Source: Rhodothermales bacterium (lineage in GTDB: Bacteria > Bacteroidota > Rhodothermia > Rhodothermales > JAHQVL01). From it: a stretch of DNA of 52,013 nucleotides. The DNA lies in the NCBI GenBank assembly GCA_034439735.1, contig JAWXAX010000118.1:1-52013 (forward strand), given 5' to 3'. The notes under the pieces were generated by a model that was not told the origin of the DNA, did not search any database, and saw only the letters and a list, made by a program, of their open reading frames with translations. The translations under genes were made by a program, and so were the position numbers. This document shows positions 26,604 to 47,183 of the stretch, piece by piece; the first letter of the stretch is position 1, and each line of letters begins with the position of its first letter.

Positions 26604-27713
26604 ATGGGAGAGATACCTTTCCGTGGTATACTCGAGCTGATTGGCGACAAGAAGTTTGGGTTTATTCGTGAGTTGCGGCCTGAATTGCCGAAGGGAGAGA
26701 ACGACGCATTTGCCCCTCCACCGCTGATACGTAAGCTGAATCTGCGCGACGGCGTGATCCTGGAAGGGACGTTACGTCCCGGTCGCAAGGGCGATCTGCA
26801 GGTGGAAAAAGTGACCACGATCATGGGTGTTAGCCCGGACGAGTGGGTGCGGACGCGGGACTACGAGACCGGTTCGATCATCTACCCCGAAGAGAAGCTG
26901 AATCTCGTGACGGGGCCGACGGATTTTTCGATGCGCGCCGTGGACCTCGCCGCACCGATCGGGAAAGGGCAGCGTGCCCTCATTGTGGCGCCGCCCCGGA
27001 CCGGCAAGACCATTCTTTTGAAGCAGATTGCGGCGGCAATTACCCGAAACCACCCGGAGGTTGCCCTCGTGGCGCTGCTCGTGGATGAGCGGCCCGAGGA
27101 AGTGACGGATTTCCGCCGATCCACCTCTGCCATGGTCTTTGCATCCTCTAACGATCGGGAAGCGGATAACCACGTCCGCGTTTCCACGTTATCCCTGGAA
27201 TACGCCAAGCGGCTTGTGGAGCTCAAGCGGGATGTCGTGCTGTTATTGGACTCGTTGACGCGCCTCGGCCGCAACTTCAACCTGTGGACGGAAGGCAGTG
27301 GGCGAACGTTGTCCGGCGGTCTGGATTCTCGGGCCATGACGATCCCTCGAAAGATATTTGGCGCCGCGAGGAATATCGAAAACGGCGGCTCGCTGACCAT
27401 CATTGCCACGGCCCTGATCGAGACGGGCAGCCGCATGGACGAAGTGATTTTTGAGGAATTCAAGGGGACGGGCAATTCCGAAATTGTGCTGGACCGCCAG
27501 ATGGCCGATAAACGCATCTACCCGGCGATCAATCTACGGAAGAGCGGCACCCGAAACGAGGAGTTGCTCCTGGGCGATATGGTGGCACAGCATCACAAGC
27601 TTTTCCGGGCGCTGAACAGCCGGCCGCCGATCGAGGCCATGCAGGCATTGCTGCGCCATTTCCAGCAGATCCCGACGAACGAACGTCTGCTCAATGAGCT
27701 GATCCCGAATTAG
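26604..27713 (+). CDS. rho: Transcription termination factor Rho (short form)
   Basis: A 369-residue hexameric RNA helicase that ends transcription. It begins directly at the RNA-binding cold-shock-like domain (FRGILELIGDKKFGFIRELR, with the RNP1-like KFGFIR). The ATPase domain follows: P-loop APPRTGKTILLK (about 129-140), DERPEEVTDF, Walker B VVLLLDSLTRLGR, Q-loop region GGLDSRAMTIPRK and R-loop FEEFKGTGNSE. The usual N-terminal helical Rho_N domain (about 50 residues in E. coli Rho) is absent. An in-frame TAA lies 6-8 bp upstream of the ATG, so no longer start exists. No clear ribosome-binding site. Confidence 0.94.
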   Translation: MGEIPFRGILELIGDKKFGFIRELRPELPKGENDAFAPPPLIRKLNLRDGVILEGTLRPGRKGDLQVEKVTTIMGVSPDEWVRTRDYETGSIIYPEEKLNLVTGPTDFSMRAVDLAAPIGKGQRALIVAPPRTGKTILLKQIAAAITRNHPEVALVALLVDERPEEVTDFRRSTSAMVFASSNDREADNHVRVSTLSLEYAKRLVELKRDVVLLLDSLTRLGRNFNLWTEGSGRTLSGGLDSRAMTIPRKIFGAARNIENGGSLTIIATALIETGSRMDEVIFEEFKGTGNSEIVLDRQMADKRIYPAINLRKSGTRNEELLLGDMVAQHHKLFRALNSRPPIEAMQALLRHFQQIPTNERLLNELIPN

Positions 27714-27848
27714 CCGACCGGCCGATCCGGTGTAGCGAACCGCCTGCCTGTTTTTTTTGATGTCAGGGGCACTCCATACGGTGCTTTTAAATTGCCTCAG
27801 TGTCAGGGAGGATTATTTTAGGTAGTATGACGAATGCCTAAAAAAGTA

Positions 27849-27877
27849 TTGACATAGAGTCAATAGGTTCCTATTAT
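27849..27877 (+). promoter_or_regulatory. Strong sigma70-type promoter
   Basis: TTGACA at 27849-27854, a spacer of exactly 17 bp, and TATTAT at 27872-27877. Transcription would start near 27884. The next coding start is about 200 bp downstream, but an intrinsic terminator intervenes. Confidence 0.65.
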
Positions 27878-27883
27878 TCAGGG

Positions 27884-27950
27884 CGTTTGGTTGCATCTCC
27901 TCTGGTTTCAATGGCGCCTGGCTCACTCCCTGAGTCGGGCGCCTTTTTTA
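27884..27950 (+). ncRNA. Candidate small RNA or attenuated leader
   Basis: A transcript from the promoter at 27849-27877 would run about 67 nt and end in the strong terminator at 27913-27950. No open reading frame with a ribosome-binding site fits inside. It could be a free-standing small RNA, or a leader of the tetR-tolC-RND operon with a conditional terminator. The sequence before the hairpin (GGGCGTTTGGTTGCATCTCC) is unstructured and pyrimidine-rich in part. I recognise no known RNA family. Confidence 0.45.
27913..27950 (+). terminator. Intrinsic terminator
   Basis: GGCGCCTGGCTCA (27913-27925) pairs with TGAGTCGGGCGCC (27931-27943) around CTCCC; the two mismatches can form G-U or wobble-like pairs. 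It is followed directly by TTTTTTATA. Confidence 0.85.
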
Positions 27951-28045
27951 TACGACTCTTTTTTGTAGGACTCTTTGAGGGCATCCTGGCAAATCTTGAC
28001 ACCTTCTTAATGGGTGGGGTGAATCTTGTTCAGCAACGTGACGTA

Positions 28046-28065
28046 GTGGTCAAAAACTGACTCAC
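28046..28065. promoter_or_regulatory. Possible TetR operator
   Basis: GTGGTCA-AAAAC-TGACTCAC forms an imperfect inverted repeat 23 bp upstream of the tetR start. TetR-type repressors commonly bind such palindromes before their own gene. The match is weak, so this is only a candidate. Confidence 0.3.
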
Positions 28066-28088
28066 GCGTCACCTTTCCTGAACCGAGC

Positions 28089-28730
28089 ATGGAGGTACCA
28101 ACGTCCCGAAGAGCACGCGAACGCCAGTTGCGGCGAGATGCCATCCTGTCGGCCGCGCGGGTGGAGTTTGCGGAGAAAGGATTCGAGCATGCCAAGCTCG
28201 ATGACATTGCGCGTAGGGCGGAGTTCGGCAAAGGGACCCTGTACAACTACTTCAGGGAGGGCAAGGAGGCCATGTTGTTTGCCCTCTTTGATGGGTTTTA
28301 CGACGACATGGAGCGGCTGGTGCGGGTCTCGTTTTTACCCGTCGAAGAGAAGAAAATAACGTTCCGTCAGGCGCTCTATGACTATACGTTGTCATGCCTC
28401 TCGTTCTATTTACACGACAAGGAGCTTTTTCTCATTCTCGTAAAAGAGGCACATCGGATGTGTTTTGGAGAGAACGAAGGGCATGCGTCGTATTTCCGGG
28501 CGCAACAGGAGCGCATTGTACACGCGTTTACCGTACCGATAGAGGCGGCCATGGGCGCCGGCACGATCCGTACCATGGACGTGCATGCGACGGCGCACAT
28601 CATCCTGGGCAATATTCAGGGGCTACAGGTGCACCTGTTGTTGGCCGGCGACACCGCCTGCTCGCCGCTGGCTCCGGAGTCGGCAGCCGGGTTTCTGACC
28701 CATCTTTTAATGGATGGACTGAGTGTCTGA
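28089..28730 (+). CDS. TetR family transcriptional regulator
   Basis: A 213-residue repressor. The N-terminal helix-turn-helix reads RDAILSAARVEFAEKGFEHAKLDDIARRAEFGKGTLYNYF (two overlapping blocks, residues about 17-56). The C-terminal ligand domain is helical and unassigned. It lies 36 bp upstream of tolC and the RND genes in the same direction, so it is very likely the local regulator of this efflux system, binding its inducer among the pump substrates. A candidate operator lies just upstream. Confidence 0.9.
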   Translation: MEVPTSRRARERQLRRDAILSAARVEFAEKGFEHAKLDDIARRAEFGKGTLYNYFREGKEAMLFALFDGFYDDMERLVRVSFLPVEEKKITFRQALYDYTLSCLSFYLHDKELFLILVKEAHRMCFGENEGHASYFRAQQERIVHAFTVPIEAAMGAGTIRTMDVHATAHIILGNIQGLQVHLLLAGDTACSPLAPESAAGFLTHLLMDGLSV

Positions 28731-28766
28731 TCGGTCCCATCCGCTCCCAAAGACCAGTATAACTGT

Positions 28767-30407
28767 ATGCTGTATCGTTGTCCATTAAGGTTGTTGAAGG
28801 CGTTCGGCCTGGTCTTCGTGGTGCTGGTGATCGCCGCCCCTCGGGTGGGCTACGGGCAGTTCGCCTCGATTTCACCCCTGTCGCCTCGAGAGCCGATCAC
28901 GCTTACACTCGAAGAGGCGCTGCAAATCGCTTATATCCAGAATTATGCGATGAAAGATGCGCGGCTGGGGGTAGAGGAAGCGGATGCCCAGGTAAAGGAG
29001 GGGTATGGCCAGTTGTATCCTCAGATCGAGGCATCGAGCAGCTATACGCGTAACTTGAAGAGCGCCAACCCGTTCTCGGGCAGTTCGGCCGGCAATCTCT
29101 TCTCCTCGCTGGGGTTTATAGACTGGCTGGCGTACAACGAGCGTTCCCGTACAGACGAAGACCCCGGCACGGACCCTCTTACGTTTGACGATTTCATCGA
29201 TCGGCAACAAGAGGGTATCGACCGCGCCGGCATCATTCTGGACGCGCAGGACAACCCGTTCGCCGTGCCGAACCAGTTTCAGTCCGGCATTACCATCACT
29301 CAGAAGATCTTCGACTTCAGCGCGTTCATTGCGGTGAAAGGCGCATCGCGCTACCTGACGACTGGCCGGGAGTACGGGCTCAAACGGCAGGAACAGGTCA
29401 TGATCGACGAGGTTCGCGCCGCCTTCTACCAGGCGCTCCTGGCTCAGGAATCGATTGAAGTCGCGCGTCAGAGTGTGGGACGCACCGGCGCCACGCTCAG
29501 TGAAATCTCACGCCAGGTGACGCAAGGAGTGACGCCCAAATTTCAGCGCTTGAGCATGGAGGTGGAGCTGGCGAACCTCGAGACGGCTTTGTTGCAAACC
29601 TCCAACCGCGCCGAGCAGGCGTTCGATCAGCTCAAGGTAGTCGTTGGCATCCCGGTCGATCAGCCCCTCCATCTGGTGGGGCAACTCGCCGTGGATTCCA
29701 TTGGAGAGTTTCAGACCATCTCGATGGAAGACGCCGTGGGCGTGGCCATCGACCAACGGCCCGACCTCGACCAGTTGCGCGAGAGCATCAAACTGCAGCA
29801 GTTGAATGCGCGTGTGACACGAAGCAGTTATCTGCCCACGCTGAACGCGTTCGCCAACTTCAGCTATGTCGGTAACGTACCGGGCAATCGGACCTTCCTG
29901 ATCGCCGACGCGGATGATCCGTTTACGTTCAGCCAGGGGTCGAATTCCTTCTTCAGCTCCAGTTACTGGAATCCGGCGATTAATGTGGGCTTCCAACTGC
30001 GTTGGCGGCTGTTTGATGGATTCCAGAGCCGTTACCGGGCTCAACAGGCGACCATCGCCGCGGACCGCCTCGAGGTGCAATTCGATCAGCAACTGCAAGG
30101 CGTCCGGCAGGAGGTGGCGCTGGCGCTTCGTAACCTGGAGGCCGCCCGCATGCAGATTGCCAGCCAGGAACGGAATAGCGAGCGGGCCGCATTGAATTAT
30201 GCCTACGCCGGCAAACGGCTCGAGGAGGGCGTCGCCACGCCGCTGGAAGTGCGGAATGTATCCGACCAGCTGGATCAGAGCCGGCTGAACCACCTCCAGG
30301 CCATCCACGACTACCTGCGCGCTCGGAGCGCGTTCGAAACGGCTGTCGGCATGCCGCTCGCCAATTCGGAGGAACTGAATCTTGCCCTTGCCCGCTGGCG
30401 CGAATAA
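28767..30407 (+). CDS. TolC family outer membrane efflux protein
   Basis: A 546-residue outer-membrane channel of a tripartite exporter. The signal peptide (AFGLVFVVLVIAAPRVGYG) is followed by LTLEEALQIAYIQNYAMKDARL, the usual first helix of the outer-membrane efflux protein fold; the second internal repeat begins with SMEDAVGVAIDQRPDLDQLRESI. The long coiled-coil helices are evident (AALNYAYAGKRLEEGVATPLEV). It has an extra loop near residues 90-150 (SGSSAGNLFSSLGF and on). Its last codons overlap an upstream start frame of the next gene, so the operon is tight. Confidence 0.9.
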   Translation: MLYRCPLRLLKAFGLVFVVLVIAAPRVGYGQFASISPLSPREPITLTLEEALQIAYIQNYAMKDARLGVEEADAQVKEGYGQLYPQIEASSSYTRNLKSANPFSGSSAGNLFSSLGFIDWLAYNERSRTDEDPGTDPLTFDDFIDRQQEGIDRAGIILDAQDNPFAVPNQFQSGITITQKIFDFSAFIAVKGASRYLTTGREYGLKRQEQVMIDEVRAAFYQALLAQESIEVARQSVGRTGATLSEISRQVTQGVTPKFQRLSMEVELANLETALLQTSNRAEQAFDQLKVVVGIPVDQPLHLVGQLAVDSIGEFQTISMEDAVGVAIDQRPDLDQLRESIKLQQLNARVTRSSYLPTLNAFANFSYVGNVPGNRTFLIADADDPFTFSQGSNSFFSSSYWNPAINVGFQLRWRLFDGFQSRYRAQQATIAADRLEVQFDQQLQGVRQEVALALRNLEAARMQIASQERNSERAALNYAYAGKRLEEGVATPLEVRNVSDQLDQSRLNHLQAIHDYLRARSAFETAVGMPLANSEELNLALARWRE

Positions 30408-30438
30408 CGCTGACATAAGCTTACGACGCTGTATCATC

Positions 30439-31620
30439 ATGACTTCTATGAGCCCTATGAATCGTCTTTCCTTACTACATTTTTATGCGTTCGCCGTGTT
30501 CGTCCTGATGCCGTTTGCAGGGATGGGATGTGGCGGCGCGCAGAACGATGACGCTACCGGTGCGGCGGCGGTGCCCGTGGCCACGGTGGGTCGCAGCGTG
30601 CGTATCGAGACGCTGGTCGTGTCGCCTACAGCCTTTGTCGACGTCATCGAACTGACCGGTTCGGTGGAAGCCAGTAACGATGCGGCGTTGTCGGCCGAGT
30701 CGAGTGGCACCTTGCTGTACCGCGCCGCGCGTGGGGCCTATGTAGGTAAGGGGGGTGTCGTGGCGCAGATTGACTCGACGATGTTATACGCCGGCTATCG
30801 TCAGTCGGAGGCGATGTTCGACGCCGCTCAGGCGCAGTTTAATCTGGCGCAAGACACGTACGATCGGCAAACGCCGCTGTATCAGGATTCGATCATCAGC
30901 GCGACCGAATACGAACGCGTTAGGGCCGAGTTGAACCAGAGCGCGGCCCAGCTGCGCCAGTCCGAGGCTGCGCTCGCCCAGTTGCGCGAGCAGCTTGACA
31001 ATACGCGAGTAACGGCGCCCTTTGGCGGGTACGTAGAAGAACACATGGCGGAAGTAGGGGAGCAGGTGGTGATGGGTACCCCCGTGGCGCGCCTGGTTAA
31101 CAGCGCAGCCGTCAAAGTCGCCGCCGGCGTGCCTGAGCGGTACGCCAGCACGATTCGCAAAGGGACACCGGTCGAGATCGAGTTCGGTCCAAACGGCGAC
31201 GGCCGCATTTCGGCGGAGATCGAGTTCGTGGGCGGTGCGATCGACGCCGCAAGCCGGACGTTTCCGATTGAAGTGCGCGTCGAGAATCGCGAGGGCATCC
31301 TCAAGCCCGAGATGACCGCGCGGTTGTTCGTGACGCGTGACCGATTGGCTGACGTGCTGGTTGTGCCTCAAACGGCCGTATTGCTCGATGAGGCCGGCTA
31401 CGGCGTTTTTGTGGTCGGATCCGAGGACGGCAAACGTGTCGCCCATGCCCGCACGGTCGAAACCGGTGCTTCGTATGGCGGCTATGTCGTGATTACTGAC
31501 GGCATCGAAGCCGGCGAAGAAGTGGTCATCCTCGGTCAGCAAAATCTTACTGAAGGCGACGTCGTCGAGGTCGTATCGACTACTGAGAGCGCCTCGTTGC
31601 GTCTCGTGTCTACCGAATAA
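30439..31620 (+). CDS. RND efflux periplasmic adaptor (membrane fusion lipoprotein)
   Basis: About 393 residues from ATG 30439 (MTSMSPMNRLSLLHF); a longer frame starts at 30382 inside tolC. The signal ends in a lipobox-like AGMGC, so it is probably lipid-anchored. Domains in order: barrel-sandwich half motif (VIELTGSVEASNDAALSAE), alpha-helical hairpin (AQAQFNLAQDTYDRQTPLYQ, ELNQSAAQLRQSEAALAQL), second half lipoyl motif (TRVTAPFGGYVEE), beta-barrel and a C-terminal membrane-proximal domain. It bridges the RND pump and TolC. Same operon, 29 bp before the pump gene. Confidence 0.9.
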   Translation: MTSMSPMNRLSLLHFYAFAVFVLMPFAGMGCGGAQNDDATGAAAVPVATVGRSVRIETLVVSPTAFVDVIELTGSVEASNDAALSAESSGTLLYRAARGAYVGKGGVVAQIDSTMLYAGYRQSEAMFDAAQAQFNLAQDTYDRQTPLYQDSIISATEYERVRAELNQSAAQLRQSEAALAQLREQLDNTRVTAPFGGYVEEHMAEVGEQVVMGTPVARLVNSAAVKVAAGVPERYASTIRKGTPVEIEFGPNGDGRISAEIEFVGGAIDAASRTFPIEVRVENREGILKPEMTARLFVTRDRLADVLVVPQTAVLLDEAGYGVFVVGSEDGKRVAHARTVETGASYGGYVVITDGIEAGEEVVILGQQNLTEGDVVEVVSTTESASLRLVSTE

Positions 31621-31648
31621 TCATCGTCAACCGTTCGGCATCCGCGTT

Positions 31649-34600
31649 ATGAGAATCACCGATATCTCGATCCAGTATCGCACCAGCGTCCTGGTGTTGA
31701 CCGCCATTCTTACGATTGGTGGCCTGCTGAGCTACCTGACGATCCCGAAGGAAGCCAACCCGTCCATCGAAATCCCGCAGATCGTCGTCACGACCATCTA
31801 CCCGGGAGCGAGCCCGGACGACATCGAGTCGCTCGTGACCCAGCACATCGAACAGGAGGTGCAGGGACTGAGTGGGATCAAGGAAATCCGATCGACCTCG
31901 ACGGAGGGGGTGTCGACGGTGATTGTGGAATTCGATCCCGACGTGTCGATCGACGACGCACTGCAGAAGGTGCGCGATAAGGTGGGCATCGCCAAGTCGG
32001 AAATACCGCCTGAAGCCGAGGAGCCTCTCGTGAGCGAGATCGACCTCCAGGAGTTTCCGATCATGACGATCAACCTGGCCGCTGGCTACTCGCTCGCGCG
32101 GTTGAAGGATGTAGCCGAGGATCTCGAGGAGCAACTCGAGGGCATCCCGTCGGTGCTGAAGGTAGATGTGATCGGGGCACTCGAGCGGGAGGTGCAGGTG
32201 GATGTCGACCTGAACGCGCTCAAGTCGTATAACCTGGCGTTTGAAGACGTCATTGCTACGATTCGTGAGGAAAATACCAACATTCCCGGGGGGTCGATCG
32301 ACGTCGATCGGGCCAATTATCTTGTGCGGGTGAACGGTGAGATCGAAGCGCCGGCCGAACTGGAGAATCTGGTGGTCGAAGCCCCGGGAGGGGTGCCCGT
32401 CTACATTCGAGATATCGCTACCGTCGTCTTCGGATTCAAAGAACGTGCGACCTATTCGCGGCTGGAGATGATCCAGGAAGAGGACGAGGAAGGCGCGCTC
32501 CGCATGTTGTCCGACGAAGAGTTGGCCACGCTCCAGGTGGTCAGTCTGAACATCGTGAAACGTTCAGGCGCCAACATACTCGATACGGTAAAAGAGATCG
32601 ACGAGAAGATGGCCGCGTTTACCTTTCCGGCCGGCACGAGGCATGTCATCACGGGCGATATGAGCGTGTACGTTGAGGCCATGTTGAAAGACCTGGAGAA
32701 CAACGTCATCAGCGGTCTCATTTTCGTTGTGGCCGTGTTGCTGTTTTTCCTGGGCGTGCGGAATGCCTTCCTGGTGGGCATCGCCATTCCGCTTTCGATG
32801 TTTATAGCCTTCATCCTCTTTCAAACGCTCGGATACACGCTCAACTTCATCATCCTATTCAGCCTGATTATCGCGCTTGGGATGCTGGTTGATAATGCGA
32901 TCGTGATCATTGAGAATATCTACCGATTCCGAGAGCAGGGGTACTCCCGGTTCGAGTCGGCGCGGCTGGGTACCAGCGAGGTCGGTCCCGCCGTGATTGC
33001 TTCGACGGCCACCACCGTGGCGGCATTCGCTCCCATGTTGTTCTGGCCGGGCATCATCGGGGAGTTCATGAGTTATATGCCGCTGACGCTCATCGTGACC
33101 CTGATTTGCTCGCTGTTCGTGGCGCTTGTGATCAACCCTGTGTTCATGGGGATCTATGCCCGGATGGACAACGAAGAATCACCTCCCATGCGGCGCGCGG
33201 CGCGGATCGGGGCGACCGTGCTTGTGGCACTGACCGGTGTCGTGATCGGCATCGCCAACTGGAAGTCGCTGGTCGTACTCATCGTCGCCATTCCGGTGTT
33301 GATCTGGATGCACAAACACGTATTCAAGCCCATGGGCGACCGATTCGTGCAGACTGGATTTCCAAGGATTGTCACGCGATACAGGACGTTTCTGAACTGG
33401 ATGCTTGAGCGGGACTACAGCGCGAAGCGTGCCTTGCTACGAAATACGTTTTCGTTGGGCGCCTTCACGCTGGGGGCGGTGGCGCTTGTCCTTGGCGGCA
33501 TCATCAGCCGCATAGCCGGCCAGTATGCCGGCATGATTCTGCTCGTACCGGGCGGGATTCTGGCGGCCCTCGGGCTCATCGGTATCTTCGTGCACATTGC
33601 AGAAATCCTGTACATCGGTGGAAAGACGACCGTAAAAGGGGGCGTATACCTTGCCCTTGGTATCGGGGCGTTACTGGGGATCATCCAGATAAGCCCTCGC
33701 CATCTGGAGCCGAGCGCCGCCGTTGTGTTGATGGCCGTGCCTGTGCTGGTAGTGCTAATCGGCGCGCTGGGCTGGGTGTTTAAAGCCCCCCGGCAACTCA
33801 TCCTGACGGACAACCGCTCGCGGTTGCTGAACGGGGTCATTGGGTCACTTTTTGGCATAGTGGGTCTCTTCGTGCTCGCACCGACGGGCGTCGAGTTTTT
33901 CCCGACAACAGATCCGAACCAGGTGGCCATTGAATTTGAGGCGCCGCTTGGGACGAACCTGGAGACGAGTAATGGCGTGGCTCTGGAGGCGCACTCCCGG
34001 ATCGATGCGCTGTTACATGACAACCCAAACCTCCGCGCGAACGTCAAGAATATGTTGACGAATGTCGGCGTCGGGGGCGACGTCATGTTTGGCGGCAGTG
34101 CGGCCGGCCCCGAGCGGGCGCGCCTGACCTTGAATCTGGTGGACTACGAGGACCGCGCCGAGCCTAGCCCCATCACCATGGCGGCACTCCGGAATCAGCT
34201 CAAGGGCATCCCGGGAACGGAGGTTACGTTCAGCCAGGATCAATCCGGCCCCCCCGTTGGCAACCCGGTCAACATCGAGATTTCCGGAGCGGACTTCGAG
34301 GTGATCAGCCGTGTGGCAACGGAGGTCAAGACGCGATTGAGCGAAGCATCGGAAACGGGCGCCATACCCGGGCTGGTGGATGTGAATGACAACCTGAACT
34401 CGGGCCGTCCCGAACTCCAGGTCGATATCGATCGCGAGCGCGCGGCCCAATACGGGTTGTCGACGAGCCTCATCGCCTCTACGATCCGTTCGGCCATCAA
34501 CGGCTCCGAAGCCGGCACGTACCGCACCGGTAAAAACGAGTACGACATCATTGTACGCCTCGCGGAGTCCGACCGGTCCAGCCTCGAAAGCCTCCGCAAT

Positions 34601-35545
34601 CTTACCATCGTGCACGAAGGGCAGCAAGTGCCCCTCGTAGCCGTCGCCGACATGCAACTGCGTGGCGGTTTAGGGTCGGTGACGCGGCTTGACCTGTACC
34701 GGGTAGCGACGGTGACCGGAAAGGCAGCCGATGGCTTCACTGGCCCTGAGGTGCTGGCCTCCACAAGGGCGCACCTGGCGGATTACGAGACCACCGTGCC
34801 CGAGGGATATACCCTTACCTATACAGGCGAAAACGAGGAGCAGCAGGAGAGTTTTGGCTTCCTCAGCTATGTGTTACTGATTGGCGTGGCCCTGATCTTC
34901 ATGATCATGGTCGCCCAGTTCAACAGCGTAAGCACGCCGTTTATCATCATGGTGGCCGTTGGCCTGAGTCTGATCGGGGTTCTGTTGGGGCTGATTCTGA
35001 CCCGCACGCCATTTGGCCTGATGACATTTATTGGCGTCATCAGTCTTGCCGGCATTGTGGTGAACAACAACATCGTGTTGATCGACTTCACGATGAAGTT
35101 GCGCGAGCGTGGTATGGATAAACGTGCGGCCATTATCGAAGCCGGTGCTACTCGACTCCGCCCCGTGATTCTGACCGCATTAACCACCGTGATCGGCCTG
35201 GTGCCGTTGACCGTCGGGTTAAACATCGACTTCGTGGGCCTGCTGACGGATTTTGCGCCGAACTTCCAGTTGGGATCTCAGAACACGCAGTTCTGGGGGC
35301 CGATGGGCATCTCGATCATCAGCGGATTGACGTTCGCGACCTTCCTGACGCTGGTCATCGTGCCGGTCATGTACTCGGTCTTTGATTCTATCTCGCAGCG
35401 GTTCTCGCAGACATTCGCGGTGGAGAATGACGAAGAAGTGGACGCGATCGCCGGCGACGGGACGCCCGACGGCCTCATGCCCCAACTGGGCGGAAATGGG
35501 AGCGCTTATGCACTGAAGGATGGCGGCGCCCAGCGGCCGGCGTGA
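31649..35545 (+). CDS. RND efflux transporter with extra membrane segment block
   Basis: At 1298 residues this proton-driven exporter is about 250 longer than AcrB-like pumps. The N-terminus (ITDISIQYRTSVLVLTAIL), the first periplasmic part (EANPSIEIPQIVVTTIYPGA) and the proton-relay helix (LIIALGMLVDNAIVIIENI, with the Asp) are standard, as is the second half (GVISLAGIVVNNNIVLIDF). Between TM6 and the second periplasmic domain, residues about 510-720 hold roughly five to six additional hydrophobic stretches (for example GATVLVALTGVVIGIANW, FTLGAVALVLGGIIS, LLVPGGILAALGLIGIFV). I do not know their function. Substrate unknown; heavy-metal-type specificity is not suggested. Confidence 0.9.
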   Translation: MRITDISIQYRTSVLVLTAILTIGGLLSYLTIPKEANPSIEIPQIVVTTIYPGASPDDIESLVTQHIEQEVQGLSGIKEIRSTSTEGVSTVIVEFDPDVSIDDALQKVRDKVGIAKSEIPPEAEEPLVSEIDLQEFPIMTINLAAGYSLARLKDVAEDLEEQLEGIPSVLKVDVIGALEREVQVDVDLNALKSYNLAFEDVIATIREENTNIPGGSIDVDRANYLVRVNGEIEAPAELENLVVEAPGGVPVYIRDIATVVFGFKERATYSRLEMIQEEDEEGALRMLSDEELATLQVVSLNIVKRSGANILDTVKEIDEKMAAFTFPAGTRHVITGDMSVYVEAMLKDLENNVISGLIFVVAVLLFFLGVRNAFLVGIAIPLSMFIAFILFQTLGYTLNFIILFSLIIALGMLVDNAIVIIENIYRFREQGYSRFESARLGTSEVGPAVIASTATTVAAFAPMLFWPGIIGEFMSYMPLTLIVTLICSLFVALVINPVFMGIYARMDNEESPPMRRAARIGATVLVALTGVVIGIANWKSLVVLIVAIPVLIWMHKHVFKPMGDRFVQTGFPRIVTRYRTFLNWMLERDYSAKRALLRNTFSLGAFTLGAVALVLGGIISRIAGQYAGMILLVPGGILAALGLIGIFVHIAEILYIGGKTTVKGGVYLALGIGALLGIIQISPRHLEPSAAVVLMAVPVLVVLIGALGWVFKAPRQLILTDNRSRLLNGVIGSLFGIVGLFVLAPTGVEFFPTTDPNQVAIEFEAPLGTNLETSNGVALEAHSRIDALLHDNPNLRANVKNMLTNVGVGGDVMFGGSAAGPERARLTLNLVDYEDRAEPSPITMAALRNQLKGIPGTEVTFSQDQSGPPVGNPVNIEISGADFEVISRVATEVKTRLSEASETGAIPGLVDVNDNLNSGRPELQVDIDRERAAQYGLSTSLIASTIRSAINGSEAGTYRTGKNEYDIIVRLAESDRSSLESLRNLTIVHEGQQVPLVAVADMQLRGGLGSVTRLDLYRVATVTGKAADGFTGPEVLASTRAHLADYETTVPEGYTLTYTGENEEQQESFGFLSYVLLIGVALIFMIMVAQFNSVSTPFIIMVAVGLSLIGVLLGLILTRTPFGLMTFIGVISLAGIVVNNNIVLIDFTMKLRERGMDKRAAIIEAGATRLRPVILTALTTVIGLVPLTVGLNIDFVGLLTDFAPNFQLGSQNTQFWGPMGISIISGLTFATFLTLVIVPVMYSVFDSISQRFSQTFAVENDEEVDAIAGDGTPDGLMPQLGGNGSAYALKDGGAQRPA

Positions 35546-35582
35546 GGGGCGTGAATCGCAGACGTTAAGGATACAACGAACG

Positions 35583-35643
35583 AGCAGCGGCCTGGAGTGC
35601 CGGGACGCATGAGCGCTCCCGGGCTGCTCCAGCCGCTGCTTAT
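35583..35643 (+). terminator. Large hairpin after the RND operon
   Basis: AGCAGCGGCCTGGAG at the left pairs with CTCCAGCCGCTGCTT at the right, with an inner GCCGGGA/TCCCGGGC stem. It lies about 37 bp after the RND stop codon and is followed by ATTGTGTCG, a weak T-tract. It probably ends the efflux operon. The remainder of the gap to 35840 holds nothing I recognise apart from a presumed promoter for the next gene. Confidence 0.6.
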
Positions 35644-35840
35644 TGTGTCGAGTCGATCTATGGCCGGCTCGTATTTGCGTTACGACAGCCGTCTTATGGG
35701 CTAAATCAGGATTGCGGAAATACCCTGAAAGTAGTAAGCTGTAGAATGGACCTGTCGGCGCGGTAAACCTGTCGCTGTTGTTTCCACGTTAAGAGCCCGC
35801 CAGCACGCATCCAAACGGCCGATACGATGTTGAAGCCCGC

Positions 35841-36965
35841 ATGACACTTCTCGCGATTTACATCATTCTGGCCATAGGCGTCTCCTTTTTGTGTTCGATC
35901 ATGGAGGCTGTGCTCCTAAGTATCACCCCATCATACATTGCGGGGCTCGAACAGGAGGGGCGTAGTCTAGGGAGTAAGATTCGGATGTTGAAGGCACAGA
36001 TCGACCGTCCGCTTGCGGCAATTCTGAGTCTGAATACCATTGCAAACACCATGGGGGCCGCCGCGGCCGGCGCGCAGGCCGCCGCGCTTTTTGGCAGTCA
36101 TGTCGTAGGGGCATTTTCGGCAGGGATGACGCTGATGATCCTGATCTTCTCCGAGATCATCCCGAAAACCGTCGGCGCTATCTTCTGGCGCCAGCTCGCG
36201 CCGATTGTGGTCCGAGTGTTGATGCCCGTGATGTGGGTCATGTGGCCGCTCGTTCGACTGGCGCAGTCGGTCACACGGTTGTTGACGCGCCATCGCAGCA
36301 AGATATCGTTCAGCCGCGAGGAGTTTTCGGCTCTCGCAGAAATTGGCCATCAGGAAGGCGTTTTCCATGAGAACGAGTCGCGCATCCTGAAAAACTTGTT
36401 TCGCTTTACGTCGATCCGAGTGAAGGATATCATGACGCCTCGCATCGTTGTGTTCTCGCTGGCAAACGCGATGACAATCGATGAAGTGATGGAATCGCAC
36501 GAGGAGTTTCGGTTTTCGCGGATTCTGGTGTATCGCGAAAGCCGAGATGTCGTGGCGGGCTATGTATTAAAAGACGACCTCCTACTCAAGGCGGCGCAGG
36601 GGCGGGGGGATCTTACGCTGGAGGCGTTGACACGGGAGATTATGGTCGTGCCGGATGCTCTGTCCATCTCGGCCTTATTGGATCGGTTGTTGGACCGTCT
36701 GGATCATATCGCTATGGTCGTAGACGAATACGGCGGGTTCGCGGGCATCGTTACGATGGAGGATGTGGTGGAGACGTTGCTCGGGATGGAAATCGTCGAC
36801 GAGGCGGATACGATCCAGGATTTGCAGGAGTGGGCGCGCCAACAGTGGACGAGGCGCGCGCGCCGGCTGGGGTTGCTCACCGAAGCGGGAGAGGCCGTGG
36901 CGACGGCACCTGCACAAATGATGACTGGTCGTCCGATCGAAACAGGTAATTCGCCGGCCGAATGA
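35841..36965 (+). CDS. CNNM/CorC-type transporter with CBS domains
   Basis: A 374-residue membrane protein. The N-terminal CNNM domain has three to four membrane segments (IYIILAIGVSFLCSIMEAVLL, then IANTMGAAAAGAQAAALFG and MTLMILIFSEIIPKTVGAIF). The paired CBS domains follow (MTPRIVVFSLANAMTI to VVAGYVLKDDLLL; DRLDHIAMVVDEYGGFAGIV). This family moves or senses Mg2+ or Co2+; the C-terminal CorC_HlyC domain is missing, the protein ending soon after the CBS pair. The annotation 'hemolysin' in databases is historical. It overlaps mpl by 4 bp (ATGA), so translation is coupled. Confidence 0.88.
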   Translation: MTLLAIYIILAIGVSFLCSIMEAVLLSITPSYIAGLEQEGRSLGSKIRMLKAQIDRPLAAILSLNTIANTMGAAAAGAQAAALFGSHVVGAFSAGMTLMILIFSEIIPKTVGAIFWRQLAPIVVRVLMPVMWVMWPLVRLAQSVTRLLTRHRSKISFSREEFSALAEIGHQEGVFHENESRILKNLFRFTSIRVKDIMTPRIVVFSLANAMTIDEVMESHEEFRFSRILVYRESRDVVAGYVLKDDLLLKAAQGRGDLTLEALTREIMVVPDALSISALLDRLLDRLDHIAMVVDEYGGFAGIVTMEDVVETLLGMEIVDEADTIQDLQEWARQQWTRRARRLGLLTEAGEAVATAPAQMMTGRPIETGNSPAE

Positions 36966-38446
36966 GTATCTCGTCCCTGCCTGATGCCCAGCTGCGGGTC
37001 TTTGCGCGGCCGGCCGCGCCGGCGCTTGAGGCCATCCGCACGGTCTATCTCGTCGGCATCTGCGGCACGGGGATGGGCTCGCTCGCCGGATTGCTTCAGG
37101 AGGCCGGCTATGCGGTATCGGGGGCGGACCAGGCGGTGTATCCGCCCATGAGCGACCGACTTGCCGAGGCCGGTATTACGGTGTTTCAGGGGTACGACCC
37201 GGCGCATCTCGAGCCCGCGCCAGACCTCGTCATCATCGGCAACGCCTGTACGCCGACCCATCCGGAAGCCGCCGCCGCGCGCGATCGCTGCCTCGTGCAA
37301 CTGTCGTTTCCCGAGGCACTCGCTCACTTATTTCTTGCGAATCGGCGTTCGCTAGTGGTAGCCGGCACCCACGGAAAAACGACTACGACGGGCTTGCTGG
37401 TCCACCTGCTCCGCTCGGCCGGCCGCGACCCGGGGTTCCTGGTAGGTGGGGTGATGCAGAATGTCGGCGTAAGCTGCGCTGTTGGAACGGGGCCGCATTT
37501 CGTCGTCGAGGGCGATGAATACGATAGTGCGTATTTCGACAAACGCCCCAAGTTCGTCCACTATCGCCCGACCAGCGCCATCGTGACGTCCATGGAACTC
37601 GATCACACGGACATCTATCCGACCTGGGAAGCCTATCGCGCCGCCTTCGAGGAATTGACGCGGCTGGTGCCTCCGGAAGGACTGCTTGCTCTTTGTGGAG
37701 ACCACGAGCCGGTGCGAGATCTGGCAGTGATGGCGAGGAGCCGGGTCGTGTTATATGGTCTGGACCCCGTCAATACGATCTCATGCCGCGACCGTCAGGT
37801 GGACGCCGATGGCCAATCGTTTACGCTCGTATCCGGAGGCCGCGCCCTGGGCCGGCTCCATCTCCCGATGCATGGCTTGCATAACCTCAGTAACACGCTG
37901 GGGGCGGTGGCTATCGCGCTCGACGAGGGGTTGAACTTCGATGAAATTCACGCCGGCCTGGGGTCGTTTCCCGGCATGATGCGCCGGCAGGAAGTGCTTG
38001 GCGAGGTGCGCGGCATCCGAGTGCTGGACGATTTTGCACACCATCCTACGGCCGTGCGCGTCACGATCGACGCTGTGCGCGACGCCAACCCCGGGCGCCG
38101 GCTCGTGGCCGTGTTCGAACCGCGGTCCAATACCAGCCGGCGAAAGGCCTTTGAGCTGGCCTATGTGGATGCCCTGGCTCTCGCCGACGTAGCCTGTCTG
38201 ACGACGCCGCCGTTCCGGCACAACGACCGGGTGGAGGATTTCCTGGATCCGGACGTCATCGTGCGGTTGCTGGAACAACTAGGCATAACGGCCCACCGCA
38301 CCGCCGACGCCGATGACATGCTGGCGATCTTGCTACATCTCCTCGTCCCGGGCGATGTTGTGCTCATCATGAGCAACGGGGGTTTTGGGGGGTTGCATCG
38401 CCGGCTGCTGGATGGATTAAAGATGGGAGATTCAAGATTAAAGTAA
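36962..38446 (+). CDS. mpl: UDP-N-acetylmuramate:L-alanyl-gamma-D-glutamyl-meso-diaminopimelate ligase
   Basis: A 494-residue Mur ligase that attaches recycled murein tripeptide to UDP-MurNAc. The N-terminal nucleotide motif VYLVGICGTGMGSLAGLL is the Mpl hallmark, followed by P-loop VVAGTHGKTTTTGLL, VEGDEYDSAYFDKRPKF, SMELDHTDIY, HGLHNLSNTLGAV and DDFAHHPTAV. MurC is shorter and has different N-terminal detail. It suggests a DAP-type peptidoglycan with recycling. The start overlaps the preceding CNNM gene by 4 bp. Palindromic repeats just downstream may end transcription. Confidence 0.93.
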   Translation: MSISSLPDAQLRVFARPAAPALEAIRTVYLVGICGTGMGSLAGLLQEAGYAVSGADQAVYPPMSDRLAEAGITVFQGYDPAHLEPAPDLVIIGNACTPTHPEAAAARDRCLVQLSFPEALAHLFLANRRSLVVAGTHGKTTTTGLLVHLLRSAGRDPGFLVGGVMQNVGVSCAVGTGPHFVVEGDEYDSAYFDKRPKFVHYRPTSAIVTSMELDHTDIYPTWEAYRAAFEELTRLVPPEGLLALCGDHEPVRDLAVMARSRVVLYGLDPVNTISCRDRQVDADGQSFTLVSGGRALGRLHLPMHGLHNLSNTLGAVAIALDEGLNFDEIHAGLGSFPGMMRRQEVLGEVRGIRVLDDFAHHPTAVRVTIDAVRDANPGRRLVAVFEPRSNTSRRKAFELAYVDALALADVACLTTPPFRHNDRVEDFLDPDVIVRLLEQLGITAHRTADADDMLAILLHLLVPGDVVLIMSNGGFGGLHRRLLDGLKMGDSRLK

Positions 38447-38475
38447 CCGTGCGCCGGGCACCTCCCAGGGACACC

Positions 38476-38541
38476 TGCCCATCCCGACAACGCAGGCATT
38501 GTCGGGATTTGCCCCTCCTCCGGGGCGAGGAGGGGCCTGTG
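38476..38541. repeat. Two palindromes; third copy of a dispersed repeat
   Basis: CCCGACAA/TTGTCGGG forms one hairpin (about 38477-38499) and GCCCCTCCTC/GAGGAGGGGC another (38511-38537). The stretch GGGATTTGCCCCTCCTC with flanks is, in reverse complement, also found in long repeats A (9332-9372) and B (12297-12345). As the gap follows mpl and precedes the convergent DUF937 gene, it could also act as a terminator. Confidence 0.6.
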
Positions 38542-38560
38542 TCCCGAGCGCGGTGCGCAA

Positions 38561-39205
38561 TTAGAAGAGCTTCTTCGCCATCCCGAGGAGGTCGTCCATG
38601 ACGGAGCCGTCCTTGTCGGCGTCCAGGAAGCTGCCGAGCATGTCGAGCGCCGGGTTACCGGCCGCTTTCTGCTGGGGCTGACCGCCGCCGGTGAGGCCTT
38701 TGAGGAGGCCGCCGAGGAGACCGCCGCCGCCACTATTACCACCACTGTTGCCACCGCCCATGGCGGCGCCAGCGAGGCCTTCGAGCAGGCCGGCGTTGGA
38801 GGTCTGCTTGCTGAGTGCACCCATCACGACCGTCGCCAGCATCGGGAGCATCTTCTTGAGGATGCCGGCGTCGAGGCCGGTTTGTTGCGCGGCGTGGCCG
38901 GCGACGTTGCGGCTCACATCCTTGCTACCCAGGATGTGCCCGAGGATGGCGTTGCCATCATTAATCGTTTCGGCCTGGCCGAGAAGATTCGGTTTTTCGA
39001 CATACTGCGAGTGGCTCCCTTTCTGAAGCGCGCCGAGGAGCCCTTCCAGGCCACCGGGCGACGAAGCGTTTTTCTGGATGCCGCGGGTGAGGGCAGGGAT
39101 CATGTGCGTCACGGCGCTCTGCACCTGGTTCGGGTCCAGGTTTAGCTGCTTGGCCATCTGCTGGAGTACGGCTCCGTTCTGGAGCACACTGGAAAGAAGA
39201 TTCAT
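38561..39205 (-). CDS. DUF937 domain protein
   Basis: A 214-residue protein with the DUF937 pattern: NLLSSVLQNGAVLQQMAKQL, LNLDPNQVQSAVTHMIPALT, GHILGSKDVSRNVAGHAAQ and ILKKMLPMLATVVMGALSKQ, a helical fold repeated twice. A glycine- and asparagine-rich linker (GGGNSGGNSGGGG) leads to a C-terminal block with SFLDADKDGSVMDDLLGMA, which resembles an EF-hand-like or dockerin-type loop (DADKDGS). Function unknown. No signal peptide. Convergent with mpl. Confidence 0.85.
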   Translation of the reverse strand: MNLLSSVLQNGAVLQQMAKQLNLDPNQVQSAVTHMIPALTRGIQKNASSPGGLEGLLGALQKGSHSQYVEKPNLLGQAETINDGNAILGHILGSKDVSRNVAGHAAQQTGLDAGILKKMLPMLATVVMGALSKQTSNAGLLEGLAGAAMGGGNSGGNSGGGGLLGGLLKGLTGGGQPQQKAAGNPALDMLGSFLDADKDGSVMDDLLGMAKKLF

Positions 39206-39421
39206 GGGTAGGTGTTAGGCAATGGGTAGGAAGAAAAAGCGCGATAACGCGTGGTCCGCGTAACGTTGCGCGCGATCAAACGCCGGTCCATCGACCGCGT
39301 GGGTCCGAAGACGGTCGAAAATGGGGGATTCGCGGGGATGAAACGTCTGAATTGTACACAATAACTGTATAAAAATGCACCTCCATGCCGGCTTCGCCTC
39401 GCTTTTTACACAGCATGTAGA

Positions 39422-41143
39422 TCACGGCGTACGGTACGCCACCCGGCCGCCGATGATGGTCATAACCACCTCGGTGGCGGGGATCTCCTCCTCGGGAATG
39501 GAGAGGATGTCGCGAGATAAAACGGTGATGTCGGCGAGTTTGCCGGGCGTCAGCGTCCCCTTGATCGTTTCCTCGAACGCGGCGTAGGCGTTGTTGATGG
39601 TATAGGAGGCCAGCGCCTGCTCGCGGGTGAGGCGCTGTTCGGGGTAAAATACCGAGCCGTCGTTCAAGCGTCGGCTCACGGTGGCGTAGTAGCTGGCCAG
39701 GGCGGAGACGTCCTCCACCGGGGCGTCGGTGCCATTGCCGACGACCACGCCGGCGTCCCAGAGGCTCTGCCATACGTACGCTCCTTCACGCGAGCGCTGT
39801 TCACCGAGGCGTTTGGGCACCCATGGGCCGTCGGATGTGGCGTGGACGCCCTGCATGGCGGCGATGACGCCAAGGTCGGCCATGCGCGGGATATCGTCTG
39901 GATGGAGATGTTGCGCGTGTTCGATGCGCCAGCGGAGGTCGGTCTTGTCCGGATGGGCGGCAAACAGGCGCTCGTAGATGTCGAGCACCTCGCGGTTGGC
40001 CCGGTCGCCGATGGCGTGGATGTTGACCTGGTAGTTGTGGGCGATGGCCACGAGAGCGGCCGCCTCGAGCGCCTCGATCGATTCCAGGTTCAACCCGGCG
40101 CTGGAGGGCATGTCCTCGTACGGCTCCAGTAGCCACGCCCCGTGTGGGCCGAGGGCGCCATCGATAGCGAGTTTGATGGATCGGACGTTCAGGAAGTGGT
40201 TGCCGTAATCCGGTAAGAAGTAGGCATCCATCCGCGCGTCCAGTTCCTCGGGGGACTCGCCGCGGAGCATGACGTAGAGGCGGACGGGCAACGCGCCTTC
40301 GTCGGCCATGCGTTTGAGGAAGTCAATCTCCTCGAACGACGACCCGGCGTCGTGGAACGAGGTGATGCCGGCCATCAGGGCGGCCGCGCCAGCGAGTTCG
40401 ACCTGCTTGCGGAGGTCGGCCTCGATCTGCTCGGGGCTCCGCTGTGCGAGGTAGCTTTCCAGGGCGCGGCCGACGAGTCCCTGGGCGGTTTCGCGCAACA
40501 GCCCGGTGGGCTCGCCCTGCGCGTCGTGGACGATTTCGCCGCCGGCGGGGTCGGGGGTCTCAGGACTCACGCGGCCCAGTTCGAGGGCGAGGGCGTTGGC
40601 GAAGGAGGCGTGTCCGCTGGCGTGCGTGAGGTAGACGGGGTTTTCGGGGGAGGCGGCGCTCATCGTGTGGTGGGTGGGGACGCCGTCGGCACTGCCGGCG
40701 GGCGTTTCGTCCCACTTCTCCTGGTGCCACCCGCGGCCAAGAATCCACGCGCCGGGTTCGGCCTGTTGCACGGCTTCGGCCACCATATCGACCATTTCCT
40801 GCCAGGTGCGGGCCTTTGTGAGGTCGAGGATCATCTTCGCCTCGCCGATCCCCAGGAAGTGGCCGTGGCCCTCAATAAGGCCGGGGATGGCGAGCCGGCC
40901 GGCGAGGTCGATCACCTGGGTGCTATCCCCGATGTACGACGCGATCTCCTCTTCCGTACCGAGAGCCACGATCCGGTCGCCGCGGACAGCCAGGGCGCGG
41001 GCCTCAGGGACGAGGGAATCTACCGAGACGATGCGGCCGTTGGTGAGCACGAGGTCGGCCGCCGGCTCGGCGGGGGCGCCGCACCCAATGAGCCATACGA
41101 AGCCCGCCAGCACAAGTAAGAAACGAAAGGGGAGCGATTTCAT
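39422..41143 (-). CDS. Amidohydrolase lipoprotein (YtcJ-like)
   Basis: About 573 residues from ATG 41143 (MKSLPFRFLLVLAGFVWL). The lipobox LIGC marks a lipoprotein. The amidohydrolase fold follows: DLVLTNGRIVSVDS, LAIPGLIEGHGHFLG (metal-binding HxH), FHDAGSSFEE, AIDGALGPHGAWLL, INIHAIGDRANREVL... (His-metal ligand), RIEHAQHL and GNGTDAPVEDVSAL (Asp). The C-terminus (TPGKLADITVLSRD) matches YtcJ-type amidohydrolases of unknown substrate. An in-frame ATG at 41278 lies inside glyS and is rejected. It is 29 bp downstream of glyS on the same strand (overlapping start and end regions), so the two are probably co-transcribed. Confidence 0.86.
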   Translation of the reverse strand: MKSLPFRFLLVLAGFVWLIGCGAPAEPAADLVLTNGRIVSVDSLVPEARALAVRGDRIVALGTEEEIASYIGDSTQVIDLAGRLAIPGLIEGHGHFLGIGEAKMILDLTKARTWQEMVDMVAEAVQQAEPGAWILGRGWHQEKWDETPAGSADGVPTHHTMSAASPENPVYLTHASGHASFANALALELGRVSPETPDPAGGEIVHDAQGEPTGLLRETAQGLVGRALESYLAQRSPEQIEADLRKQVELAGAAALMAGITSFHDAGSSFEEIDFLKRMADEGALPVRLYVMLRGESPEELDARMDAYFLPDYGNHFLNVRSIKLAIDGALGPHGAWLLEPYEDMPSSAGLNLESIEALEAAALVAIAHNYQVNIHAIGDRANREVLDIYERLFAAHPDKTDLRWRIEHAQHLHPDDIPRMADLGVIAAMQGVHATSDGPWVPKRLGEQRSREGAYVWQSLWDAGVVVGNGTDAPVEDVSALASYYATVSRRLNDGSVFYPEQRLTREQALASYTINNAYAAFEETIKGTLTPGKLADITVLSRDILSIPEEEIPATEVVMTIIGGRVAYRTP

Positions 41144-41171
41144 GAGGCCGTACGGGAGTTTGGAGGATGGA

Positions 41172-42626: not shown

Positions 42627-42715
42627 GGAAGCGGCCGGGCTACTACAGGGTGCGTCGGGAAAGAGCGCATACTACCAGTCTGACAGGGGTGGGGTTTCTG
42701 GAGGATTGGAGGCGA

Positions 42716-43048
42716 TCACGCGGCGTAGCCTATTTCTTCGCGCGGCTCGCCCTCCAGCCGCGGTCGGATCTGAATGATCACTTTCTGATCGAGCAGGCTC
42801 AGAAAATCGAGCAGCTTATCTGTTGTGAACCGGCTGAAGTGGCCATTCATGAGGTGGGAGACATCCGGTTGTGCAATCTTCAGCAACTGAGCTGTCTCCC
42901 GCTGTTTCAGGCCGCGGTCCTTGAGAATCCGAAAGACGTAGAAGCCGATTCTGGCACGCCGGTGCAATTCAGTTGCGTCGGCCAGCCCGAGATCCGCGAA
43001 GACGTTGTCGGTGCCGTGTTCATGGGGTCTAGCCATTGTCGCGTTCAT
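42716..43048 (-). CDS. HTH_37-type XRE regulator (antitoxin-like)
   Basis: A 110-residue protein with a helix-turn-helix: LKQRETAQLLKIAQPDVSHL and the following NGHFSRFTTDKLLDFLS. The layout (helix 1 ARIGFYVFRILKDRGLKQ, then a hydrophobic tail KVIIQIRPR) matches the HTH_37/HigA2-type regulators that serve as antitoxins for RelE-like or phage Gp49-like toxins. No intact toxin is beside it. Upstream DNA contains a short frame reading TPREDLEVIRK, interrupted by TGA, that could be a toxin's decayed C-terminus. It may now act as an orphan repressor. Confidence 0.7.
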   Translation of the reverse strand: MNATMARPHEHGTDNVFADLGLADATELHRRARIGFYVFRILKDRGLKQRETAQLLKIAQPDVSHLMNGHFSRFTTDKLLDFLSLLDQKVIIQIRPRLEGEPREEIGYAA

Positions 43049-45180: not shown

Positions 45181-45924
45181 TCACCCACTCAACAGCCCCC
45201 GCTCGGCGAACGACGTGTAGCTCTTCCCAGCGATAATCAGGTGGTCGTGGATCGGTATCCCCATCAGCTTGCCGGCTTCCACGAGTTGCCGCGTGATGCG
45301 GATGTCCTCGCGGCTGGGCTCGAGGTTGCCAGAGGGGTGGTTGTGGAGGCAGACGATGCCGGCGGCGTTTTCCAGGATGGCCTTCTGGAACACCGCCCGG
45401 GGCTCGACGATGCTGGCGGCCAGGCCGCCCTCGCTGATCGTGAAGTCTCCCACGATGACGTTGGCGGTATTGAGCAGGACGATCTTGAAGATCTCCCGGG
45501 GAAGATCCCGCATCAGGGGCCCGTAGACGCCGGCGACGTCCTCTGGCGCCCGCACCTGAATACGCGGGCCGGCCTGCTGCGATTCCACCCGCCGGCCCAG
45601 CTCGAACGCGGCCACCAGCTGCGCCGCCTTCGCCGCGCCGATGCCGGCGAGGCGGGTGAGTGCATTGTGATCTCGTCGCGACAAGGCGTGCAGCGAACCG
45701 TACGCCTGCACCAGCGCCTGCCCGAGTTGGACGGCCGAGAGGCGCTCGTCGCGGGTGCGCGTGCCAGTGCCGAGCAGCAGGGCGATGAGTTCGGCGTCCG
45801 ACAATACCGCCGGCCCGAGTTTGCGGAGCTTCTCCCGGGGCCGGTCCGATTCGGCCCAGCGGTGGATGGGGGTGTGATACTGTAGCTCCGGCTCGCCGGA
45901 GGTGCCGTTGGAGGGGTCGGGCAT
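45181..45924 (-). CDS. radC: RadC family JAB-domain protein
   Basis: A 247-residue protein. The N-terminal helix-hairpin-helix-like region (RREKLRKLGPAVLSD-type pattern, LTRLAGIGAAKAAQLVAAFEL) is followed by a JAB/MPN domain with the complete metal motif HNHPSGNLEPSREDIRIT (HxHx-Ser-Asp). The historical DNA-repair role of RadC is doubtful; family members are linked to mobile DNA or repair, but the activity is unproven. It lies between the toxin-antitoxin cluster and manC on the same strand. Confidence 0.9.
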   Translation of the reverse strand: MPDPSNGTSGEPELQYHTPIHRWAESDRPREKLRKLGPAVLSDAELIALLLGTGTRTRDERLSAVQLGQALVQAYGSLHALSRRDHNALTRLAGIGAAKAAQLVAAFELGRRVESQQAGPRIQVRAPEDVAGVYGPLMRDLPREIFKIVLLNTANVIVGDFTISEGGLAASIVEPRAVFQKAILENAAGIVCLHNHPSGNLEPSREDIRITRQLVEAGKLMGIPIHDHLIIAGKSYTSFAERGLLSG

Positions 45925-45993
45925 GGCGTCGAGGCTTTATCTACCTAGACGTAATGCGAGGTCGGAACGTACCGTGTGCTGGTGAAAAGAGGT

Positions 45994-46071
45994 GTCGGGT
46001 TACGCTTCGCTAACCAATCAACGGCCGCTCATATGGCGTAATGGAAAATGTCGGGTTACGCTTCGCTAACC
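45994..46071. repeat. Direct repeat with palindromic ends
   Basis: GTCGGGTTACGCTTCGCTAA occurs at 45994-46013 and 46050-46069, both in the 186-bp gap between radC and manC. The second copy extends to GTCGGGTTA...TAACCCGAC, a palindrome, and to CCTACGG. This resembles a dispersed palindromic repeat family. Confidence 0.7.
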
Positions 46072-46109
46072 CGACCTACGGGGGCTCCACGCCATAAGAA
46101 GCCACACGA

Positions 46110-47183
46110 TCAAATGTACTGGTTGAGCTGGTGCACGTTGAGGTAGTCGACGACGTTTTTGACCTGTTGGGCGCTTTCCTGGTTGCAGACGAGGACGGCG
46201 TCTTCGGTGTCGACGACGACGGCGTCGTGGATGCCGACGAGTACGATGAGGCGTTCGCCGCCCTGGACGAGGCAGCGGCTGGAGTCGTGCACGATCACGT
46301 TGCCCTGGATGGCGTTGCCATGGTCGTTTTTATCGCTCAGGGCATAGACCGCGCGCCAGTCGCCGACATCGTTCCAGCCGAAGGAGCCGGGGACGACAAA
46401 CACGGTGTGCGCGCGCTCCATGACGCCGTAGTCGATGGAGATCTTCGGGCACTTCATGAAGGCGGCCGTGATGACCTCGCGCTCCCGGTCGGTCCCGACC
46501 GCGTCGAAATAAGGCGTGAAGGCGTCGTGCGCCTCGGGGAGGTGCTCCTTGAACTGGGCCATGATCGTATCCGCCCGCCAGATGAACATCCCGCTGTTCC
46601 AGAGGAAATCCCCGGAGTCGATGAAGCTCTCGGCCGTGGGGAGGTCGGGCTTTTCGGCGAACGTCTTGACCGCATACGAGCGCGCCGCCTCGTTCATGTT
46701 GATCGTCCCGTCGAACTGGATGTAGCCGTAGCCCGTTTCGGGGTGGGTAGGGGTGATGCCGATCGTCACCAGGGCCTCCGGCTGCTGGGCCTGCTCGATG
46801 GCTACTTCGAGTACTTTGTGGAATTGTTTGACGTTCTGGATGAGGTGGTCCGCCGGCAGCACCACCATCGTCGCGTCCGGGTCGCGGGCGAGCAGCTGCG
46901 CGGCCGCGTAGGCGATACACGGCGCGGTATTACGGCTCATCGGCTCGGCGAGGATGTTCTCGAGCGGGACGGCCGGGAGTTGTTCGTGGGTCTGCTGGAC
47001 GTACCGTTCGTGCGTGACGATCAGGCACCGTTCCGGCGGGATGAGCCCCTGCAGACGCGCCACGGTGTTCTGGATCAGCGTGGCCTGGCCGAATACGTTG
47101 ATGAATTGTTTTGGCCGGTCCTGCCGGCTCCGGGGCCAGAAACGGCTTCCTACGCCGCCGGCCATGATGACTGCATATACCAT
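46110..47183 (-). CDS. manC: Mannose-1-phosphate guanylyltransferase
   Basis: A 357-residue enzyme that makes GDP-mannose from mannose-1-phosphate and GTP, for polysaccharide or glycoprotein synthesis. The pyrophosphorylase signature is AVIMAGGVGSRFWPRSR with the following RPKQF; the later AEPMSRNTAPCIAYAA, VVLPADHLI, ETGYGYIQFDG, FAEKPD and WNSGMFIW blocks match. It lacks the C-terminal phosphomannose isomerase domain of bifunctional enzymes. It is downstream of a GT2 glycosyltransferase on the same strand (145-bp gap). Confidence 0.94.
   Translation of the reverse strand: MVYAVIMAGGVGSRFWPRSRQDRPKQFINVFGQATLIQNTVARLQGLIPPERCLIVTHERYVQQTHEQLPAVPLENILAEPMSRNTAPCIAYAAAQLLARDPDATMVVLPADHLIQNVKQFHKVLEVAIEQAQQPEALVTIGITPTHPETGYGYIQFDGTINMNEAARSYAVKTFAEKPDLPTAESFIDSGDFLWNSGMFIWRADTIMAQFKEHLPEAHDAFTPYFDAVGTDREREVITAAFMKCPKISIDYGVMERAHTVFVVPGSFGWNDVGDWRAVYALSDKNDHGNAIQGNVIVHDSSRCLVQGGERLIVLVGIHDAVVVDTEDAVLVCNQESAQQVKNVVDYLNVHQLNQYI

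Follow-up and report, generated by a model that had tools for sequence, protein, structure and literature searches.

A predicted 65-nt transcription unit at a probable inversion junction beside an RND efflux operon in a Rhodothermales bacterium

Here we describe a small promoter-terminator unit that lies between rho and the efflux operon tetR-tolC-mfp-rnd in a Rhodothermales bacterium and that is, on balance, probably a by-product of a chromosomal inversion of about 18 kb in this lineage. The unit is real and compact, probably under repressor control and, as far as is visible, unique to this genome. The window, by which we mean the whole stretch of DNA analysed (52,013 nucleotides; contig JAWXAX010000118.1 of assembly GCA_034439735.1), belongs to a draft genome of 304 contigs. 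The features discussed are collected in Table 1.

According to the proposed course of events, one breakpoint of the inversion would lie between rho and radC and the other between manC and tetR. The former manC terminator would have stayed with the tetR operon, and a promoter on the rho side would now read straight into that terminator, giving an RNA of about 65 nt. The -35 box appears to be covered by a TetR-family operator, which is most likely read by a distant TetR encoded on contig C44 (the C44 TetR); the promoter would stay off until this protein, the controller of another RND efflux system, binds its ligand. The terminator would shield tetR-tolC-mfp-rnd, which would be driven and autoregulated from its own conserved region, and the RNA itself would have no function.

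Table 1. Features of the promoter-terminator unit, its surroundings in the window and the second efflux locus.
Feature	Position	Strand	Basis
rho (369 aa, short form), last gene left of the inversion breakpoint	26604..27713	+	followed by radC in 8/11 relatives checked
Left breakpoint interval, if the terminator came with tetR	27714..27912	.	gene order in relatives
Palindrome TATTGAC-ATAGA-GTCAATA over the -35 box, probable C44-type TetR-family operator	27847..27865	.	sequence, genome searches, shuffles
Sigma-70 type promoter TTGACA-N17-TATTAT	27849..27877	+	sequence, genome-wide motif counts, shuffles
Predicted transcript, about 65 nt	27884..27949	+	inferred from promoter and terminator; fold
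Intrinsic terminator, 13-bp stem and T6, probably the former manC terminator	27913..27949	+	terminators at a similar place in relatives
Conserved upstream element of the tetR promoter (CTTCTTAA ... GAATC)	28003..28025	+	alignment of relatives
Tandem TGAC-N6-GTCA operators, 19 bp apart, conserved across the order; predicted operator of the window's own TetR	28039..28071	.	alignment of relatives
tetR, first gene of the efflux operon	28089..28730	+	
tolC (OEP), membrane fusion protein, RND pump	28767..35545	+	
radC, after rho in most relatives checked	45181..45924	-	gene order in relatives
Second breakpoint (manC/radC), two REP-like repeats, no strong terminator	45925..46109	.	repeat and terminator scans
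manC (mannose-1-phosphate guanylyltransferase by visual inspection), directly before tetR in most relatives	46110..47183	-	gene order
TTGAC-N5-GTCAA operators either side of the C44 TetR gene, second RND efflux locus	L092 1506-1520, 2210-2224 (G000 contig C44)		genome search

Results

The promoter (TTGACA at 27849-27854, a spacer of 17 bp and TATTAT at 27872-27877) matches the consensus at 11 of 12 positions, and 36 bases after its -10 box begins a hairpin (27913-27943) of 13 pairs, nine of them G-C, with a loop of 5 and six T residues behind it (27944-27949). Both elements had been pointed out in a first-pass annotation of the sequence and were borne out here. The RNA from 27884, a start placed by inference 7 nt past the -10 box, to 27951 (68 nt) has a folding energy of -26.9 kcal/mol (z = -4.6 against shuffles). 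A promoter matching at least 10 of 12 positions with a strong terminator 20-110 nt downstream occurs once in the 52-kb window, namely at this unit, and such a pair appeared in 0 of 100 local dinucleotide shuffles. The unit shares with intergenic small-RNA genes an own promoter and an intrinsic terminator without a coding sequence; promoter and terminator together predict well a self-contained unit of about 65 nt, close to the 67 nt estimated earlier, and we infer that it is transcribed. That nothing codes between the two elements was a fair statement: a frame of 49 aa (27911-28060), hydrophobic in its translation, crosses the terminator, but a small protein was rejected as probably due to chance because the frame has no Shine-Dalgarno sequence and overlaps the tetR operators.

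The strict pattern TTGACA-N16-18-TATNAT has five copies in the 5.13-Mb genome, against 0 in the backward control. The remaining four lie directly upstream of genes in the correct orientation, namely those of two BlaI-type regulators, a Phd-type antitoxin and a CspA-type protein (named by eye from their sequences), so that this type of promoter looks real and appears to be used in this organism.

In 60 genomes of the order nothing resembling 27714-28088 turned up beyond short chance matches, which leaves the first-pass proposal of a free small RNA, if a conserved one is meant, unsupported; no Rfam family reached the gathering score and no Hfq gene was found in the genome. Poor conservation in close relatives, named at the outset as the result that would speak against the proposal, is what we observed at the level of the family, the genomes compared, among them G001 and G002 of the same family, all lying outside the genus. 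Evalue-mode matches in Rfam (SNORA35, Spot 42, mraW) were weak and at chance level, and a riboswitch or known small RNA was rejected. Complements of the 5' part of the RNA, with 2 mismatches, were no commoner than in the backward control.

Not mentioned in the first-pass annotation is a perfect palindrome of 19 bp that includes the -35 box. Inverted TTGAC half-sites 5 bp apart (27849-27863; TTGACATAGAGTCAA) carry arms that extend to 7 bp; in shuffles, a palindrome as good as this falls on the promoter in 1.3% of cases. With up to three mismatches allowed, the genome yielded one exact copy, the window site itself, and three next-best places at two mismatches each, two of which flank the C44 tetR. 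The 5.1-Mb genome has exactly three TTGAC-N5-GTCAA cores, one in the window and one on either side of the C44 tetR, which stands between two efflux gene sets and is followed by genes for a TolC-type protein, a membrane fusion protein and an RND pump. Relatives of this tetR in the five genomes checked also carry the sites, one on each side in G001, G002, G008 and G023, and in G031 an exact site upstream and one with a single mismatch downstream (3'), a pattern that traces an operator footprint for this TetR family. The two sites are identical in the genome studied here (G000) and in G001, and the upstream site of G031, TTGACATTATGTCAA, overlaps TTGACA-N17-TATACT in a geometry that matches the window promoter.

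Since the C44 tetR and its relatives carry these sites, the promoter at 27849 is probably repressed by the C44 TetR, and not by the neighbouring one, and the former is the best candidate regulator; the assignment is not certain, because the operator half-site coincides with the -35 hexamer and in this order chance alone would give about one TTGAC-N5-GTCAA core per genome. An operator of the neighbouring TetR was rejected for the site at 27847, which is single and has an N5 spacer, as against the conserved tandem TGAC-N6-GTCA sites at 28039-28071. Other TTGAC-N5-GTCAA sites in G001 and G002 are mostly inside genes, and one in G001 immediately precedes a tRNA-like stretch. The G002 site at C342:10801 (spacer GTAGA) has a UmuC-type gene on one side and a lipoprotein gene on the other, and was rejected as the same locus; the intergenic sequence between these two genes (L147 1502-1516, G002 contig C342), TTGACGTAGAGTCAA, is one base off the window core and adjoins a hairpin.

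The gene order, likewise absent from the first-pass annotation, is rho-tetR and manC-radC in the window, and rho-radC and manC-tetR in relatives, which corresponds to an inversion of about 18 kb (27714-46109). radC follows rho in eight of the 11 relatives checked, and manC precedes tetR in most. In G009 the ancestral order is contained within about 25 kb, to which the window from 28 to 45.9 kb maps inverted between matching flanks; G001 and G002, of the same family, have the ancestral neighbours, the former with an additional gene that separates manC from tetR. That a conserved unit follows rho was rejected, since in most relatives checked radC comes next and no such unit is there. Two copies (46050-46075 and 45994-46019) of a REP-like repeat, GGGTTAGCGAAGCGTAACCC, lie at the manC-radC breakpoint, and none was found at the rho-tetR side; the repeat has 12 genome copies within two mismatches (control 0). 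Repeats of at least 8 bp common to both breakpoints were not found. Two rho-like genes are found in most genomes of the order, the short form and a longer form with about 50% identity to it (at C56:40327-41400 in the genome studied here); this genome also has a second RadC-type gene (L165; G000 contig C99:857-1216).

A strict scan of the interval from manC to the tetR operators found an intrinsic terminator in five of 21 relatives, with 55-83 bp from its end to the operators, compared with 90 bp in the window; in G001, G002 and L030, hairpins with T runs were seen by eye between manC and the operators. No strong terminator is present at manC/radC in the window, where a weak REP-like hairpin is all that now comes after manC. 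The terminator of the unit is probably the old manC terminator, matched by position and not by sequence. A promoter of the 27849 type was not found in the rho-radC or manC-tetR intervals of relatives; it may be an old one from the rho-radC interval, or a new one that arose after the inversion or was selected as a new gene.

Alignment of 30 loci upstream of tetR revealed tandem TGAC-N6-GTCA palindromes with a pitch of 19 bp and, 18 bp ahead of them, a box of the GAATC/GCATC type. Of 27 aligned rows, 16 were scored as having the box, mostly in fixed register; several of the remaining rows show the same box-palindrome design, shifted by one 19-bp step in the alignment. A third TGAC-N6-GTCA unit before tetR seems to be present in some relatives. 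The window carries the whole design at 28003-28071, past the terminator and directly before tetR. The earlier suggestion that a second TTGACA, at 27996, gives tetR its own promoter was right in that such a promoter is predicted nearby, but the hexamer itself, although present, is not conserved and lacks a good -10 box at a distance of 16-18 bp. A conserved control region of its own is predicted for the pump operon, which does not need the upstream promoter.

Discussion

With a conserved promoter and operators of the pump operon downstream of the terminator, the role of an attenuator-type leader, which had also been proposed for the unit, becomes unlikely. In such a leader the operon's only promoter would stand upstream of the terminator; here the conserved control region lies downstream. 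It is true that tetR is the next gene after the unit and shares its strand, and that the operon on C44, like that of the window, encodes an RND efflux system, so that the ligand of the C44 TetR might raise the second pump through partial read-through. The terminator is strong, however, and is kept in the folds of both a 68-nt and a 205-nt transcript; the 36 nt between the -10 box and the hairpin leave no room for an aptamer, neither a leader peptide with a Shine-Dalgarno sequence nor an alternative antiterminator was found, no Rfam family matched at gathering score, and relatives have no such unit upstream of tetR. We therefore regard a leader as very improbable. More weight is due to a functional small RNA of about 65 nt specific to this lineage, induced when the C44 TetR leaves its operator and base-pairing with mRNAs through a single-stranded 5' part of 29 nt, which contains UCUCCUCU (complementary to Shine-Dalgarno sequences) and precedes the terminator. 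Promoter, operator and terminator are all present at sensible spacing, regulated promoters are usually selected, and small RNAs of Bacteroides act without obvious Hfq and can be narrowly conserved, as is MasB (PMC7366714, PMC10994844). Against it stand the lack of conservation in the 60 genomes, the chance level of the Rfam matches and of the 5'-part complements, the Hfq gene not found and a location at a rearrangement breakpoint, which offers the unit a simpler origin; we hold this role to be possible but unlikely.

It is improbable that the promoter is inactive or a chance match and that the hairpin merely terminates rho. The gene rho is immediately upstream and has no other terminator, and the consensus in Bacteroidetes such as Bacteroides is -7 TAnnTTTG and -33 TTTG, not a -10/-35 pair (PMC7366714), which would bear on the case if the host is close enough to them; yet all four other strict matches in the genome lie directly upstream of genes, with none in the control, and both the promoter-terminator pair and the palindrome exceed shuffles. 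Nor do we give much credit to the inversion having made a new small RNA gene from a promoter controlled by a drug repressor and the terminator of another gene, by which the regulator of one RND pump would make an RNA of about 65 nt beside the operon of a second pump and so coordinate both; this, too, seems doubtful at best. A by-product of the inversion is the explanation that we prefer.

If the inversion did join these parts, a rearrangement can yield a ready-made, regulated small transcription unit without gene duplication, and new small RNAs might be born in this way. The case also advises caution, because a perfect promoter-terminator pair adjoining an operon need not regulate that operon. 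For two TetR families that belong to efflux systems in this order, footprints now define predicted operators, which are useful in themselves.

Attenuators and terminated leaders of resistance and efflux genes have a terminator between promoter and operon. The window resembles them in having a terminator between a promoter and the pump operon, but differs in the lack of a leader peptide, an aptamer and an antiterminator fold, and in the conserved promoter that the operon has past the terminator. With the small RNAs GibS and MasB of Bacteroides (PMC7366714, PMC10994844) the unit shares a promoter and an intrinsic terminator without coding sequence in a genome without Hfq; its predicted transcript is shorter (about 65 nt, compared with about 100 nt for MasB), and it has no relative that we could find. 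In Pseudomonas aeruginosa, the operators of TetR-family repressors overlap the promoters of efflux pumps (PMC10609311). The unit differs from these in that no gene follows its promoter and that the gene of the presumed repressor is on another contig, but is like them in the perfect inverted repeat that covers the -35 box of a sigma-70 promoter; the half-sites and spacing of the palindrome at 27847 equal those of the sites that flank the TetR gene of an RND operon in the same genome.
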